Source of the DNA: Hydrogenothermaceae bacterium
GTDB taxonomy: Bacteria; Aquificota; Aquificia; Aquificales; Hydrogenothermaceae
Direction: 5' to 3'
Assembly (NCBI GenBank): GCA_026418455.1
Contig: JAOABH010000003.1
Location: 62,001-126,000 of the forward strand
Length of the DNA stretch: 64,000 nucleotides
In this document: in pieces, positions 868 through 30,852 of the stretch
Position numbering within the stretch: position 1 is the stretch's first letter
How the letters are laid out: every line of letters starts with the position of its first letter
Notes under the pieces: model-generated
What the model saw: only the letters and a program-made list of their open reading frames with translations
Told to the model about the DNA's origin: nothing
The model's database searches: none
Made by a program: the position numbers and the translations under genes

Positions 868-2355
868 ATGAAAAAGATTAAAGAAGAAATAGCATTAATA
901 GTTGGAAGTTTTATAACTTACGCAATTTTAATCACTTTTCTCCATATTGATAGAAAAAATAAGGAATATATATACTCTCTTGGAAAAATAGATCAGATTG
1001 AGTCAGAATTTCTTGTTATATCTGAAAGATTTGAAAATCTATCAGAATTTTTCACAAACTCAAGATTAAGAAAACCTGATATAACTACCACATTAGCAAC
1101 AGAAGATGTTTCAAAGAGATACATCATTTTTAACGGAATATATGAAGATTTTAAATTATTAAAGAATTATGGTTATGATGATATCATCTTCATACTACCT
1201 GATGGAATACTTTTTTTAGATATGAAAAAGCCCCAAATTTCTGGTAAAAAATTTATAGATATAGACAATATAGTGGTTGTCTCAAATACATTAAAAAACT
1301 CTGTTGATAAAAGGTTTTACGACAGTATGATCTATTCTTACCCATTGTTTCACAATAATAATCTCGTATCCTATGTATATTTTACAGTTCCTTTTTATAC
1401 AGTAGGAAAAAATCTTTCAGATATCTTTAGAAATTTTTATGTTTTTTACATCCATAGAGACTTTATATCACTAAATGGTTCAAAAGGTTACATTCAATCA
1501 GAACTAAGTGATGAATACTTTGTTGATAGAAAATTTTACAACCTAAGCTTAAAGAAAAAGGAAGAGAATATAGATATTATAACAAAGATAAATATAGAGC
1601 TTAAAAGTAAAATATCAGAAAGGCTGCAAAAAATTGATTCATTCTGTGTTCCTGTTAAAATTGAAAACAAACCTTATATTGTAACTTTTTATAGCATTAA
1701 AGATATATCGGACAGACATATAGGTTATCTAGTATCTTATACATTAGACAACACGTTTTTTGAATTTGAAAGAACTTTCTATATTACTGCAGGTTTATTA
1801 GGGATAATTGTAATACTTATAACATACTCAGTTTATCAAATTTTAAAATTAAAGGCTGCTGCAGAAGAAAAAGCTATTACAGATAAATTAACAGGTACAT
1901 TTAATAGAATGGCTATAGAACCAATAATAAATGCAGAATTAGATAGATCAAAAAGAAATAACAAGCCAGTATCTTTAATATTATTTGATATAGATTTCTT
2001 CAAGAAAATAAATGATAGATATGGACACGATAAAGGAGACTATGTTCTAAAAAAGGTTACTGAGATAATAAAAAGGAGTATAAGGAAATCTGATTACCTC
2101 ATAAGATGGGGAGGAGAGGAATTTTTATTGATACTTCCGGAAACAGATATAGAGGGAGCTAAAAAACTTGCAGAAAAGTTGAGAACTGCTGTAGAAAGTT
2201 ATTCTTTTAAAGATATAGGAAAAGTTACAATAAGCCTTGGAGTTACACAGATAAAAACCGGTGAACCATTAGACAATGCAATAAAGAGAGCAGATGAAGC
2301 ACTTTATGCAGCTAAAAATAGAGGTAGAAACAGGGTGGAGTTTAACTATTATTGA
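868..2355 (+). CDS. Membrane-bound diguanylate cyclase with extracytoplasmic sensor domain
   Basis: A 495-residue protein that should make cyclic di-GMP from two GTP. A membrane segment at about residues 8-25 and a second at about 303-323 bracket a roughly 275-residue outer domain, probably a Cache-like sensor judged only by size and position. The cytoplasmic GGDEF domain starts near residue 337; its active-site loop reads RWGGEEF, an active-type signature, and the FDIDFFKKIND stretch carries the metal-binding Asp. No RxxD inhibitory site is evident just before the GGEEF loop. No ribosome-binding site is visible. The 3' end overlaps the end of convergent cinA by 14 bp. The ligand sensed is unknown. 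Confidence 0.9.
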   Translation: MKKIKEEIALIVGSFITYAILITFLHIDRKNKEYIYSLGKIDQIESEFLVISERFENLSEFFTNSRLRKPDITTTLATEDVSKRYIIFNGIYEDFKLLKNYGYDDIIFILPDGILFLDMKKPQISGKKFIDIDNIVVVSNTLKNSVDKRFYDSMIYSYPLFHNNNLVSYVYFTVPFYTVGKNLSDIFRNFYVFYIHRDFISLNGSKGYIQSELSDEYFVDRKFYNLSLKKKEENIDIITKINIELKSKISERLQKIDSFCVPVKIENKPYIVTFYSIKDISDRHIGYLVSYTLDNTFFEFERTFYITAGLLGIIVILITYSVYQILKLKAAAEEKAITDKLTGTFNRMAIEPIINAELDRSKRNNKPVSLILFDIDFFKKINDRYGHDKGDYVLKKVTEIIKRSIRKSDYLIRWGGEEFLLILPETDIEGAKKLAEKLRTAVESYSFKDIGKVTISLGVTQIKTGEPLDNAIKRADEALYAAKNRGRNRVEFNYY

Positions 2356-3544
2356 TTAAATTTAATCTGATTACATTAAGAGCAAACTGTGATATATACA
2401 GTCTAACATCATTTCTTTCACCTTTGTAAATCTCTTTATAAACTTTTATACTTTTGCCATCAAAATATCCAATATAATGGAGTCCCAATGGTTTATCAGG
2501 AGTTTCTCCAGTGGGTCCAGCAATTCCTGTATCACTTACAGCTATATCAGTTTTAAGTAAATTTCTAACACCAATAACCATCTGTTTTGCAACTTCCTCT
2601 GATACTGCACCTAAATTTTCAATAATATTTCTATCAACTCCAAGGACATTAATCTTTACCTCATTTGAATATGAGACTATTCCTCCCATAACATAAGAAG
2701 AAGAACCAGGTATATTAACAAGTCTTGAAACTATAAGCCCTCCGGTTGAAGACTCTGCTGTAGATATAGTTAAACCTCTCTCTTTAAGAATACCTCCAAC
2801 CACCTCTTCCATCTCAATATTTGATTCTGCATATATGAAGTTTCCTAATCTTTCTTTAACAGTTTTCACCTTTTTAGTGAAACTCAAATTATCTAAATCT
2901 GATAAAAATATATCAACCCCTTTTGGGGAGAAATTGTAAGATAAATCTTTCATATCTTCAAGCAGATAGTTAATATCAAGCTCTTTTAAACCGAAAGTTC
3001 TTAAAAGTTTTACATATCTTACAGGTTTTGTAAGCTCAAGTTTTCGAAGGACTTCTTCAAACATAGGTTTTAACTCTGATGGAACTCCTGGGAGAGCAAC
3101 TATAACCTTTCTAACATCATCAAGAACCTTTAAAAATCCAAATGCTCTTCCAATGGGATTTTTTATAGGAACACTTCCATATGGAATTTTACACATAGAT
3201 TTTCTTTCCTGTGTAAACTCTAAATTTTGATCTTGGTAATAACCCTTTAACAGATTTAAACATTCCTCATCATAAATAAGAGGAACACCTATAGCATCTG
3301 CTACAGCTTGTCTCGTATAGTCATCAGTGGTAGGACCAAGTCCTCCACTGATAAATACCAAATCTGATCTATCTAAACCATACTTTATATAATTTACAAG
3401 GTCATAGTGATTATCCGGGGCTTGTATGATTCCCTTAACATCAACTCCTCTCTCAAAAAGAACACCTGCCATATAATTTCCGTTTCTATCTATCTTTCTA
3501 CCTTCTATAAATTCACTACCAGTGACAATAATAACAGCTTTCAT
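2342..3544 (-). CDS. cinA: CinA-like protein, nicotinamide-nucleotide amidase
   Basis: A 400-residue two-domain CinA. The N-terminal half is the molybdopterin-binding-like domain (GSEFIEG, FISGGLGPTTDDYTRQAVA, ALPGVPSEL). The C-terminal half, from about residue 250, is the PncC-type domain that deamidates nicotinamide mononucleotide in NAD salvage, with TAESSTGG and the DTGIAGPTG stretch. In the family the N-terminal part has ADP-ribose pyrophosphatase activity; that is known of relatives, not shown here. The start has a good Shine-Dalgarno (AAGGAG) lying inside the last codons of the upstream lipoprotein gene, two bases away, so the two are probably translationally coupled. The 3' end overlaps the convergent diguanylate cyclase gene. 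Confidence 0.93.
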   Translation of the reverse strand: MKAVIIVTGSEFIEGRKIDRNGNYMAGVLFERGVDVKGIIQAPDNHYDLVNYIKYGLDRSDLVFISGGLGPTTDDYTRQAVADAIGVPLIYDEECLNLLKGYYQDQNLEFTQERKSMCKIPYGSVPIKNPIGRAFGFLKVLDDVRKVIVALPGVPSELKPMFEEVLRKLELTKPVRYVKLLRTFGLKELDINYLLEDMKDLSYNFSPKGVDIFLSDLDNLSFTKKVKTVKERLGNFIYAESNIEMEEVVGGILKERGLTISTAESSTGGLIVSRLVNIPGSSSYVMGGIVSYSNEVKINVLGVDRNIIENLGAVSEEVAKQMVIGVRNLLKTDIAVSDTGIAGPTGETPDKPLGLHYIGYFDGKSIKVYKEIYKGERNDVRLYISQFALNVIRLNLINNS

Positions 3545-3546
3545 AC

Positions 3547-3972
3547 TTACTCCTTGTAGTTATCTAAAATTATCTTTATATTTCTACTTCCGGCTTTTAC
3601 CGTTTTGACTTCAGATTCACAATAACCGCCTTCTTCAAAGGGATTTCCACTCTTAGAGGTTCTTGCGTACATTAAAAGGTCTCCTTGAAATAGTTTTAGA
3701 TTATCTTCTATAATCACATCGGCAGGAGATATAGTAAATTCATAAGGATAGTCCGGATTTTTAATCCTTTTGACTGCTAAGGGCTGGGGTGATTCTATAT
3801 TTCTCACTATAATAAATAAAAATCCTGAACACTTATCTTTTATCTTACTATCAACAGCTATTACTCCGGTAATTTTATTCTGCTCTATAAACTGAGCTTC
3901 CGGAGGAAGTTTCTGACAAGATGATAATAATATTAGAAAACTGACAATAACAATAAAGAATCCTTTCAACAT
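3547..3972 (-). CDS. Small lipoprotein with CcmI/CycH C-terminal-like domain
   Basis: About 141 residues from the ATG at 3972, chosen because GAGGTG precedes it and because it yields a compact lipoprotein signal ending in the lipobox LLSSC. An in-frame ATG 24 bases upstream (3996) has no clear ribosome-binding site. After the lipobox come about 115 residues whose pattern (FIIVRN then PLAVKR, YEFTISP, and ARTSKSGNP) resembles the C-terminal domain of the cytochrome c maturation protein CcmI, which binds apocytochrome c in the periplasm. Here it stands alone without the TPR part and without other ccm genes nearby, so a role in heme-protein maturation is a hypothesis. It is the first gene left of the candidate replication origin and is transcribed away from it. 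Confidence 0.7.
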   Translation of the reverse strand: MLKGFFIVIVSFLILLSSCQKLPPEAQFIEQNKITGVIAVDSKIKDKCSGFLFIIVRNIESPQPLAVKRIKNPDYPYEFTISPADVIIEDNLKLFQGDLLMYARTSKSGNPFEEGGYCESEVKTVKAGSRNIKIILDNYKE

Positions 3973-4024
3973 CTTCACCTCAAAACTAATATTCATTTCA
4001 ATTTTATCACATTACCGATTAACC

Positions 4025-4119
4025 TGTGGATAACCTGTGGATGAATTGTGGATAACTTGTGGAAAAGTTGTGGATAGATTGTGGATATGTTGTGGATAAC
4101 TTTAAGGTTTTGTGGATAA
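4025..4119 (-). repeat. Phased DnaA-box array, seven boxes at 11-bp period plus one
   Basis: Seven same-strand 9-mers start exactly every 11 bases from 4025 to 4091, separated by two-base spacers, and an eighth perfect box starts at 4111. Three of the seven phased boxes are perfect matches. The 11-bp step is close to one helical turn, so all boxes face the same side of the helix. The period holds even where boxes are degenerate, which argues that spacing itself is selected. Confidence 0.92.
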
Positions 4120-4139
4120 GTTAAAGTAGTAAAAAAAAA

Positions 4140-4170
4140 TTGTCCACATAGTATCCACAGAAGTTCCACA
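4140..4170 (+). repeat. Second phased DnaA-box group in opposite orientation
   Basis: TTGTCCACA (4140), GTATCCACA (4151) and AGTTCCACA (4162) again follow an exact 11-bp step but lie on the other strand from the first array. They are weaker matches (one, one and two mismatches). Together the two groups point their 3' ends at each other across an A-rich spacer (4120-4139). Confidence 0.8.
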
Positions 4171-4299
4171 AAATATGTGAAAACATAAATCTCTATAAAA
4201 ATCGGTATCACAAAAGGTTATATTAGCTAAGCAAGAAAAAAGTTATCCACATAGGTTCAAGCATACCAAATTATTAATAAATAAAAGTAATTTAGAAAC

Positions 4300-4339
4300 A
4301 TGTCCACAGTTTAGGACCCTATTATTATTTTTATTTTTA
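4300..4339 (+). other. Origin unwinding element: DnaA box, GC cluster, DnaA-trios
   Basis: A degenerate box (ATGTCCACA, 4300-4308) is followed by the GC cluster GGACCC (4314-4319) and then a run of triplets from 4319 to 4339. Read 3' to 5' on the bottom strand these are one GAT followed by six AAT or AAA triplets, all fitting the published DnaA-trio consensus 3'-[G/A]A[T/A]-5'. The order box, GC cluster, trio is that of the basal unwinding system described for Bacillus subtilis. The first triplet shares a base with the GC cluster. Confidence 0.75.
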
Positions 4340-4396
4340 GTTTACACTTTGCTAAAATAGATAGTACAAAAGAATAAATAGAGTAAGGAGTTAATT

Positions 4397-4921
4397 TTGG
4401 TAAAAGTTTTGGTTGATTTGGAATCTGATAAATCAGTGTTAGATTTAATGGATAAAGTAAAAAAAGAGGTTGATTTTGAAATTGAAGAAAAAGAGTTTTC
4501 TAAACTAAAACCGGCTATTGGTATATTAGATAAAAACGGAAAAATCCGGGTCACTTTTTTGGGAGTTCCTAAATTTGAGGGATTGGTTGAAAGTATAAAG
4601 ATATTCAGTTCTGGAAATTACCATCTTACAGAGAGAGTTCTAAATTTTTTGGACATGATAGATAAACCTGTTGACATAAAAGTTTTTACTACACAGGGGT
4701 GTGGATGGTGTTATCCTGCTATTATTAAAGCCGTAAGTTTTGCTTATCTCTCTGAATTTATAAATGTATCTATCTATGATTGTTACTCTTTTCCTGATCT
4801 GGCTACATCGTATAATGTTATAACCGTTCCGAAAACTGTGATAAATGACAAAATTGAATTTGTCGGTACAAAAGATGACAATGAGTTTCTGGGTTATATC
4901 TTAACAGCCATAAAGGAGTAG
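4397..4921 (+). CDS. Thioredoxin-fold protein of the glutaredoxin-like / PDO type
   Basis: 174 residues starting at a TTG with AGGAG seven bases upstream. The C-terminal half is a thioredoxin fold with the redox motif CGWC at about residues 101-104 and the cis-proline stretch TVPKT; the N-terminal half is a second, cysteine-less thioredoxin-like unit. This two-unit plan recalls the protein disulfide oxidoreductases of thermophiles, which keep intracellular proteins oxidised or reduced, but the protein is shorter than the usual 220-230 residues and only one CxxC is present. No signal peptide, so cytosolic. It is the first gene right of the candidate origin, runs away from it and is followed four bases later by dxr. 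Confidence 0.75.
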   Translation: MVKVLVDLESDKSVLDLMDKVKKEVDFEIEEKEFSKLKPAIGILDKNGKIRVTFLGVPKFEGLVESIKIFSSGNYHLTERVLNFLDMIDKPVDIKVFTTQGCGWCYPAIIKAVSFAYLSEFINVSIYDCYSFPDLATSYNVITVPKTVINDKIEFVGTKDDNEFLGYILTAIKE

Positions 4922-4925
4922 TTTT

Positions 4926-6029
4926 TTGAGTAAAATAGCATTACTGGGATCTACTGGTTCTGTTGGAAGTCAAACTCTCGATGTAGTCAGAAGTTATAGA
5001 GATTCTGTAAAACCAGTTATTCTTGGAGCTTCAAAACCTTCAGAAAAACTTAAAAATCAGGTTTTAGAATTCCAGCCGGAGTATGTTTATATTCATAGTT
5101 TCAATGAAGACAGATTTTACGGTTCAAAGGTTATAAATGAATCAAATATAGAAGATATTCTCAACGTAGATGTTGATCTTTACATAAATGCTATTTCTGG
5201 GATAGATGGTATAAAACCTACGTATCTTATATTGAATGCTGATAAAAAACTCGCTACCGCAAATAAAGAGTCTATAATATGTCTTGGAGAGATGTTAAAA
5301 GATAAAATAAAAACAGTTATACCTATAGACAGTGAGCATTCAGCTATATACCAGATATTGAAACAGGAAAATAAATGTGTAGATAAAATTATCTTAACTG
5401 CATCCGGAGGACCATTTTTACATAAACCTTTGGAAGAGTTTCAAAACATAACTGTTGATGATGCCCTAAATCATCCTAAATGGAGTATGGGTAAAAAGAT
5501 AACTGTTGACAGTGCTACTCTTATGAATAAGGGATTTGAAGTTTTAGAAGCCTATTATCTATTTGGTTATGATTACGATAAGATTGATGTAATTATACAT
5601 CCAGAGAGTATAATACACGGTATGGTAGAGTTCTGTGATGGAACAGTTATATCTAACATGTCCTGTCCAGATATGAGAATTCCTATATCCTATGCTATAT
5701 TTGGAGAGAGAAAGTTTTTAGATATAAAGCCGTTAAAACTTTATGAGATAGGTTCTTTAACTTTCTATAAACCAGATTATGAAAAGTTTCCACTTTTAAA
5801 ACTTGCTATAGAATGTGGGAAGTTAGCTGGAAGTTATCCAATAGTTTTAACCGTTGCAGATGAGATCGCAGTTAATCTATTTTTAGAAGGTAAGATACGA
5901 TTTACAGATATAAATAAATTTATAATTAAATCTATTGAAAATATCAAAATTCCTCTACCTTCTGATATAAATGAATTACTATCTGTTATTGAATCATTAA
6001 AAAGTAAAATTGGATATATGTCTGTTTAG
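4926..6029 (+). CDS. dxr: 1-deoxy-D-xylulose 5-phosphate reductoisomerase
   Basis: 367 residues, TTG start preceded by AAGGAG at the end of the upstream gene. The enzyme rearranges and reduces DXP to 2-C-methyl-D-erythritol 4-phosphate with NADPH, the committed step of the non-mevalonate isoprenoid pathway. GSTGSVGSQTLDVV is the NADPH-binding loop; IPIDSEHSAIYQ holds the metal-binding acidic residues, ASGGPFL and the HPKWSMGKKITVDSATLMNKG block are the family's substrate and metal site signatures. Length is slightly below the usual 380-400, with a short C-terminal domain. Cotranscription with the thioredoxin-fold gene is likely from the 4-bp gap. Convergent with metH. Confidence 0.96.
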   Translation: MSKIALLGSTGSVGSQTLDVVRSYRDSVKPVILGASKPSEKLKNQVLEFQPEYVYIHSFNEDRFYGSKVINESNIEDILNVDVDLYINAISGIDGIKPTYLILNADKKLATANKESIICLGEMLKDKIKTVIPIDSEHSAIYQILKQENKCVDKIILTASGGPFLHKPLEEFQNITVDDALNHPKWSMGKKITVDSATLMNKGFEVLEAYYLFGYDYDKIDVIIHPESIIHGMVEFCDGTVISNMSCPDMRIPISYAIFGERKFLDIKPLKLYEIGSLTFYKPDYEKFPLLKLAIECGKLAGSYPIVLTVADEIAVNLFLEGKIRFTDINKFIIKSIENIKIPLPSDINELLSVIESLKSKIGYMSV

Positions 6030-29895: not shown

Positions 29896-30852
29896 TTGAG
29901 AAAAGAGGTTGATATCTTACTTAAAGATATAATAAAAAATCCACCTAAAAAATTTATTTATATGCTTACAGGCAAGTTGCCTAATAAACTCTTAGATACA
30001 GAGCTTCCGTATACAACTAATAAAAAAGCTGATTTTGTTATAGAGCTTGAAGATAGTTCTATACTTCACATTGAATTCCAAAGTTATAACGATAAAAATA
30101 TGTTAGATAGGATGCTTGAATACTTTTTTTTAATATATAGAAAAACAGGAAATAGAAACATATACCAATTCTGTATATATGTCGGTAACGATTCGCTTAA
30201 GATGCAAAATGAGTTTCAATTTCCATTTTTTAAGTACAGTTATAAACTTATAGATATGAGACAGATAAACTGTCAAGATTTAATATCAAGTGATAATATA
30301 GAGGATAAACTATTAGCAGCACTTTGTAATATAGAAAATCCAAAACTCTATGTAAATCACATGAGAGAAGTATTAGAGAGTTTACCAAAAAAAGAAAGAC
30401 AGGATAAAATTTATCTATTGATTGAAATAATGAAATTGAGAGATATTTTAAAGGAAGGTTTAATAAAAATTAAGAAGGAGGATTCTGCTATGCCTATAAG
30501 AGTTACAATAGACCTTGATGAGATTATAAACGATCCATTGTTAGGTGAAATTGCAAGGATGGCAATAGAAAAAGGTGAAAAAGTCGGCTACGAACAAGGT
30601 TTACAACAAGGATTACAACAAGGATTACAGCAAGGGTTACAGCAAGGGTTACGGCAAGGTAGGATAATAGAAACTCAAGAAGATATTATAGACATTTTAG
30701 AGTATAAGTATGGGGAAGTTCCAGAAATATTGATAAACTATATAAAGAAGGTAGATGATATTGATAAGCTTAAAGGTATACTCAGATACAGTGTGAAAAG
30801 CTCTTGTATCGAAGATGTTATGAGTTATGTAGAGTCTGTAGTAGGAGATTAA
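29896..30852 (+). CDS. Rpn-family PD-(D/E)XK nuclease (transposase-like)
   Basis: 318 residues from a TTG start with AGAGGA seven bases upstream. The N-terminal 110 residues hold a PD-(D/E)XK core in the Rpn form: Asp in KADFVIEL, the E-x-Q site in HIEFQSY and an Arg/Tyr-bearing helix (MLDRMLEYFFLIYR). Rpn proteins are DNA endonucleases first described as promoting recombination and later as anti-phage toxins. The C-terminal third starts at an internal Met (residue 199), carries a GLQQ tandem repeat and ends with the EYKYGEVPE helical domain common in this family. It sits between thiE and an esterase gene with 3- and 1-base gaps. Confidence 0.85.
   Translation: MRKEVDILLKDIIKNPPKKFIYMLTGKLPNKLLDTELPYTTNKKADFVIELEDSSILHIEFQSYNDKNMLDRMLEYFFLIYRKTGNRNIYQFCIYVGNDSLKMQNEFQFPFFKYSYKLIDMRQINCQDLISSDNIEDKLLAALCNIENPKLYVNHMREVLESLPKKERQDKIYLLIEIMKLRDILKEGLIKIKKEDSAMPIRVTIDLDEIINDPLLGEIARMAIEKGEKVGYEQGLQQGLQQGLQQGLQQGLRQGRIIETQEDIIDILEYKYGEVPEILINYIKKVDDIDKLKGILRYSVKSSCIEDVMSYVESVVGD
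30490..30852 (+). CDS. Possible internal in-frame gene: C-terminal product of the Rpn gene
   Basis: Inside the Rpn gene, the ATG at 30490 (Met199 of the long product) has its own strong ribosome-binding site, AAGGAGG eight bases upstream, better than that of the full gene. Initiation here would give a 120-residue protein (MPIRVTIDLDEI...) with the repeat and the C-terminal helical domain but no nuclease core. In E. coli, rpn genes are reported to encode such C-terminal small proteins (RpnS) that neutralise the long toxin. The parallel is inference; the ribosome-binding site is seen directly. Confidence 0.55.
   Translation: MPIRVTIDLDEIINDPLLGEIARMAIEKGEKVGYEQGLQQGLQQGLQQGLQQGLRQGRIIETQEDIIDILEYKYGEVPEILINYIKKVDDIDKLKGILRYSVKSSCIEDVMSYVESVVGD
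30595..30660 (+). repeat. 12-bp coding tandem repeat, five and a half units
   Basis: Units of 12 bases beginning CAAGG encode QGLQ-type repeats (GLQQ five times, the last as GLRQ). Units differ by one or two bases, drifting from A-rich at the 5' side to G-rich at the 3' side. Being a multiple of three, slippage would lengthen or shorten the helix without frameshift. Confidence 0.95.

Follow-up and report, generated by a model that had tools for sequence, protein, structure and literature searches.

A phased array of DnaA boxes at the probable chromosomal origin of a Hydrogenothermaceae bacterium, and a candidate specificity switch at DnaA residue 433 in its relatives

The window analysed in this work (the whole stretch of DNA, 64,000 nucleotides long) corresponds to positions 62001-126000 of contig C8 of genome G000, a draft of 1.535 Mb in 8 contigs from a thermophilic bacterium. 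Between the genes for a putative lipoprotein and for a thioredoxin-fold protein, it carries a dense group of DnaA boxes facing in both directions and, at one end of this group, a putative DNA unwinding element (DUE). The features of the locus, together with the loci of relatives discussed below, are collected in Table 1.

Table 1. Features of the origin locus (window coordinates) and corresponding loci of relatives (locus coordinates)
Feature	Position	Strand	Remarks
Gene, putative lipoprotein with Ig_CycH domain	3547..3996	-	adjoins cinA (2342-3544)
Inverted phased array, seven DnaA boxes	4025..4099	-	TTATCCACA orientation on the - strand; boxes start at 4025, 4036, 4047, 4058, 4069, 4080 and 4091
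Eighth DnaA box	4111..4119	-	perfect; orientation as the seven-box array
Opposite-facing 11-bp triple	4140..4170	+	boxes 4140 (TTGTCCACA), 4151 (GTATCCACA) and 4162
AT-rich box-free gap	4171..4242		separates the inner triple from the DUE-side boxes
DnaA box TTATCCACA	4243..4251	+	perfect; faces the unwinding site
DUE-proximal DnaA box ATGTCCACA	4300..4308	+	2 mismatches; 10 nt before the trios
DnaA-trio tract	4319..4342	+	eight triplets, CTA TTA TTA TTT TTA TTT TTA GTT
Putative DNA unwinding element	4319..4396		19% GC; first 27 bp 11% GC
Gene, Thioredoxin_3 domain protein	4397..4921	+	followed by dxr (4926-6029)
Changed-box origin loci	L131 4446-4620 (G097), L234 (G100), L134 (G102), L236/L237 (G098), L233 5165-5528 (G006)		
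DnaA loci of the five Asn433 genomes	L204, L196, L197, L200, L225		
His433 origin loci	L241 1501-1610 (G096), L252 1209-1520 (G095)		

A preliminary description of this DNA had reported seven boxes whose starts follow each other at 11 bp without deviation, and both a box scan and inspection of the sequence reproduce it: each box is 9 bp long and is separated from the next by a 2-bp linker, giving an exact 11-bp step across all seven (read on the plus strand, the boxes appear as TGTGGATAA). Three of them (4025, 4047 and 4091) are perfect and the other four carry one mismatch each, always outside the TCCACA core, which is intact in all seven. The self-identity of the sequence at a lag of 11 peaks at the array, where it reaches 0.82, and the GC content of the array is 36%. 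The eighth box was also correctly described as perfect and as lying on the same strand, but it falls outside the exact 11-bp frame, since it starts 20 bp (and not 22 bp) after the seventh, close to two helical turns; its counterpart in many relatives is found 28-29 bp from the first opposite box.

Such an arrangement is far from what the background would produce. Boxes with at most one mismatch occur elsewhere in the window at about 1.25e-4 per position per strand, and at this rate the chance expectation for seven boxes at exact 11-bp steps is about 1e-21 per genome. A genome-wide search for perfect triples of TGTGGA cores at 11-bp steps returned five on the plus strand and one on the minus strand, all at this locus, with no match elsewhere in the genome. 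Additionally, 11 boxes lie within 350 bp here, as compared with at most three in any other 350-bp stretch of the 800 kb sampled, so that the cluster is both unique and far above background.

The single reverse match of this search (C8:66143-66170) is the opposite-facing triple, of which box 4162 retains the TCCACA core only (3 mismatches). This triple, the boxes at 4243 and 4300 and the DnaA-trio tract had all been overlooked in the preliminary description. The gap that follows the triple recurs at the equivalent position in relatives with a length of about 90 bp, and box 4243 is equivalent to boxes that the relatives carry at about -65 to -99 from the trios. On the side of the unwinding element, the spacer between the proximal box and the trios (GTTTAGGACC) is followed by eight triplets which, on the minus strand, read 3'-GAT/AAT-5'. 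The basal unwinding system (BUS) has been defined as a DnaA box at most 16 bp from at least three 3'-NAN-5' trios, with 3'-GAT-5' the commonest beside the box (PMC8287927), and box 4300, its 10-nt spacer and the eight trios correspond to this definition. Its score of 16 was matched by one of 500 shuffled versions of the region and by no other site in the window, and the majority of the family loci examined have an element of the CTATTATTATT type close to a box. We describe box 4300-4308 and the trios as a putative BUS, with the AT-rich unwinding element directly beside the boxes, as expected for an oriC.

The composition of the two strands points to the same place. Because gene direction dominates the raw GC skew of the window, we cumulated third-codon skew instead, after correcting it for the strand of transcription, over 400 kb of contig C8. 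The preliminary description had expected a cumulative skew minimum at this locus and, with this strand-corrected measure on one contig, the combined GC/AT minimum falls on a gene whose centre is at 65,771, next to the array (66,025), and none of 2000 permutations reaches its depth (taken separately, AT skew has its minimum at 65.8 kb and GC skew at 74.8 kb). A left-to-right change of skew sign at the array was also found in four relatives with few contigs. It is significant in three of them (G009, G082 and G097), with the combined minimum within about 3 kb of the array, and weak in G099, where the minimum lies 47 kb away. The dnaA gene is on another contig (C5, 89.5 kb), which means that this is not an origin of the dnaA-dnaN type. 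This separation, like the two mismatches of the DUE-proximal box, weighs against the locus being the origin.

The same layout, measured from the trios, is found throughout much of the family: boxes at about -11 and -19, then at -65/-77/-88 or -73/-84/-95, then at -180 to -190, and an inverted array which starts at about -208 and runs outward (in the window, from -208 to -294). The flanking genes are kept within groups, namely cinA and the lipoprotein gene in genus g1, a thioredoxin-fold gene and dxr in g9 (a thioredoxin-fold flank is also present in one g2 genome), and rimP-nusA in the Aquifex-like g11, where rimP, nusA and obg were named by reading translations. In another context, a contig labelled Thaumarchaeota archaeon UBA160 (L074) encodes a relative of the window's thioredoxin-fold protein with 30% identity; the contig is possibly a misbinned bacterial one.

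Taken together, the skew minimum, the unique box cluster, the adjacent unwinding element and the same layout in relatives (with a skew change at or near their arrays) are the reasons why we consider this locus to be very probably the chromosomal oriC, in agreement with the preliminary description. The literature searched contained no origin for Persephonella or Sulfurihydrogenibium, and we claim no priority for the location of the origin.

Across the order, triples of TGTGGA at 11-bp steps (with at most one mismatch) were found in 36 of 112 genomes, and a control pattern in none. Among 26 loci, 111 same-strand neighbours stand 11 bp apart, against 25 for spacings of 8, 9, 10, 12, 13 and 14 bp together. 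Runs of inverted boxes at 11 bp occur in genera g1 and g9; in g2 and in genus g12 of family f2, 11-bp runs lie on either strand. The inverted boxes of genus g7 are mainly 21 bp apart, i.e. two turns, and several members of the family have an inverted array built mainly on 21-bp steps, the one-turn spacing not always being filled with recognisable boxes. The 11-bp pattern is not universal in Aquificales, since the 112-genome survey turned up no clear triple in f3 or in many genera of Aquificaceae (g13-g20). Within the window's own genus, the number of array boxes varies from 4 to 7. As a separate observation, the g9 genome G099 contains, beyond the canonical boxes, a further stretch (L132 5290-5430) whose units resemble TTAATCACA/TTATTCACA and recur with a periodicity of about 11 and 22 bp.

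Unexpectedly, there are five relatives in which the box itself has changed, base 6 being replaced so that TTATCCACA becomes TTATCAACA or TTATCGACA, while the 11-bp step is kept. Four of them belong to genus g9 (G097, G098, G100 and G102) and have phased arrays of TGTTGATAA-type boxes, equivalent to TTATCAACA, with about ten TTATCAACA boxes at exact 11-bp steps in G097. The fifth (G006, genus g11) has TTATCGACA boxes, also at the 11-bp step, and these are flanked, as are the TTATCCACA boxes of G005, by rimP-nusA on one side and obg on the other. The counts at base 6 are 13 A and 4 G in G097, 9 A and 1 G in G098, 8 A, 2 G, 3 T and 1 C in G100, 7 A, 3 G and 1 T in G102, and 8 G and 1 A in G006; in Asp-type genomes nearly all boxes have C (11 of 12 in the window's genome).

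These genomes are called Asp-type after DnaA residue 433 (E. coli numbering, by alignment to chain A of 1J1V and to the Aquifex structures 1L8Q and 2HCB). This position is among the published base-contacting residues, and box position 6 is the conserved C of TTWTNCACA (PMC7561715, PMC5043019). Asp433 is also reported as part of a highly conserved dyad. Among the genomes read, Asn occupies position 433 in exactly the five with changed boxes, and Asp in every sister genome, including G099, G101 and G103 of g9 and G001-G005 and G007 of g11 (for G103, the origin was not found in its assembly). The two Asn433 groups are separate on the DnaA tree, each beside Asp-type relatives of its own genus, and therefore count as two independent coincidences. 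Additionally, genus g8 (G094, G095 and G096) has His at this position, and the origins of G095 and G096 contain an 11-bp run of TGTCATTTT, equivalent to AAAATGACA and with G at base 6, beside TTATGCACA and ordinary boxes. The association between DnaA and its boxes comprises three events in a single order, two with Asn and one with His. On another branch, two genomes of genus g14 (G030 and G033; L230 and L232) have the recognition helix KSHSSV, with Ser at 433; in g14 and in G104, the surroundings of the conserved thioredoxin-fold gene showed no 11-bp array.

We infer that Asn433 itself would cause the new base-6 preference, and it is rather more probable than not that residue 433 acts in nature as the switch that sets specificity for base 6 of the box, the phase then being more deeply conserved than the box sequence. 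Because the whole array changed base 6 together with residue 433, the comparison indicates that the array boxes would be read by DnaA in their 11-bp frame, and that spacing may be more constrained than sequence. Selection on the 11-bp step is likewise supported by the genome comparison, since the step is retained between species whose boxes differ in sequence and in number. The suggestion in the preliminary description that helical phase is selected is thereby strengthened, and its expectation of a conserved period is borne out in many members of the family, which share both the layout and the step.

Tandem duplication of an 11-bp unit might also yield the exact step as a side effect, helical phase then being under no selection. 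Two units of the window's array (3 and 7) are indeed identical, box number varies within the genus and, in G065 and G068, the arrays consist of near-identical units repeating the same linkers, because of which recent tandem duplication does contribute to the arrays of these two genomes. Nevertheless, most pairs of units in the window differ at 2-3 of their 11 positions without any indel, the step has outlasted the turnover of box sequence in two lineages, and it is shared by the opposite triple and the DUE-side boxes, the 21-bp spacings being also whole helical turns. Duplication as the sole explanation is thus unlikely; it may create units, but selection must keep their spacing.

With regard to function, boxes as dense as these, without dnaA beside them, could titrate DnaA, and the locus might accordingly be a titration or regulatory site (similar to datA or DARS) or an autoregulated promoter rather than an origin. 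A weak promoter-like match does overlap the first box on the minus strand, yet promoter-like sites are fewer than in shuffled sequence. This reading leaves the skew minimum and the adjacent DnaA-trio unwinding element unexplained and, as no comparable cluster exists in the genome, would require an origin elsewhere to be free of boxes, which makes it very improbable. Even less credible is an integrated plasmid origin of the iteron type, served by a plasmid initiator instead of DnaA: plasmid origins do carry short tandem iterons of similar period, but the repeats found here are consensus DnaA boxes, the layout occupies conserved chromosomal sites in many species, the box changes follow residue 433 of the chromosomal DnaA, and the flanking genes included no recognisable plasmid rep gene. 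Both the titration and the iteron readings were rejected on this evidence.

The best explanation as a whole, to which we assign a probability of roughly 0.9, is that the region 4025-4396 is the chromosomal origin of a member of Aquificales. As to its mechanism, DnaA would first occupy the perfect boxes (4025, 4047, 4091, 4111 and 4243), and the one-mismatch boxes would then be filled through contacts between neighbours set by the 2-bp linker, as happens on the arrays of E. coli. Some 210-295 bp separate the seven-box array from the trios, and its boxes face the other way, for which reason we do not take it as the unwinding-proximal element; rather, the DnaA-ATP oligomer formed on this distal array would be brought by looping to the DUE-side boxes, from where DnaA would pass onto the trio strand and open the duplex at 4319-4396, allowing the helicase to be loaded. 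As to the straight filament envisaged in the preliminary description, an 11-bp step set against about 10.5 bp per turn drifts by about 17 degrees per box, so that such a filament would wind slowly rather than run straight.

The preliminary description had also set this phasing apart from known origins, a contrast that proves too strong, given that the E. coli arrays have an 11-bp step as well. The E. coli oriC contains two opposite arrays, R5M-tau2-I1-I2 and C3-C2-I3-C1, each with four low-affinity sites at an exact 2-bp spacing on one face of the helix, which are filled progressively (Rozgaja et al. 2011, reviewed in PMC4451416). The locus described here shares with it the two opposite runs (seven sites in one direction, three in the reverse), the exact 2-bp gaps, strong sites that would anchor weaker ones and the unwinding element at one end. 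It differs in that the inverted run has seven sites in frame and not four, in that the sites are near-consensus with an intact TCCACA core (the E. coli sites being strongly degenerate), in the explicit trios and in the absence of linkage between dnaA and the origin. With the BUS of Bacillus subtilis incC it has in common a box at most 16 nt from at least three NTN triplets beginning with CTA (PMC6669920, PMC8287927) and a spacer with a GC-rich piece (GGACC), whereas the location away from dnaA-dnaN, a tract made mostly of TTA/TTT, the weak proximal box and the large inverted array upstream set it apart. The oriC regions of Thermus thermophilus and Streptomyces likewise have many close, consensus-like boxes thought to act cooperatively (cited in PMC4451416); the likeness is one of box density and sequence, the constant 11-bp step in both orientations and the fixed distances to the trios being found here in Aquificales. 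Finally, lineage-specific boxes are known from Thermotoga maritima (AAACCTACCACC; PMC6669920) and from Epsilonproteobacteria (T at position 5; PMC5043019). As in these cases, a non-consensus box accompanies differences in the recognition residues of DnaA domain IV, but here the change is at position 6 and coincides with a substitution of Asp433.

Phased arrays being already known from E. coli, it is the DnaA/box switch that is new. In helix 5 of DnaA, the Asp-His dyad is generally regarded as almost invariant among bacteria, and so are the DnaA boxes. If our interpretation is correct, an entire multi-site origin would have been rewired without losing its 11-bp frame. The relatives form a natural series (Asp, Asn in two lineages, His) along which a recognition residue and about ten origin sites changed together, with no loss of the 11-bp step or of the distances to the unwinding element. 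Two questions become testable with this series, namely whether origin firing depends on the helical spacing of DnaA sites, and in what way the specificity of an essential protein can shift jointly with that of its many sites. The DnaA structures of Aquifex aeolicus (1L8Q, 2HCB and 3R8F) are standard models, and the present work provides a concrete origin map for the order that supplies them, none having turned up for this order in the literature searched.

Elsewhere in the window, a 12-bp in-frame tandem repeat (30581-30660, encoding GLQQ units) lies inside an open reading frame at 29896-30852, whose product, by reading of its sequence, resembles a protein of the PD-(D/E)XK transposase type and is a candidate member of that group.
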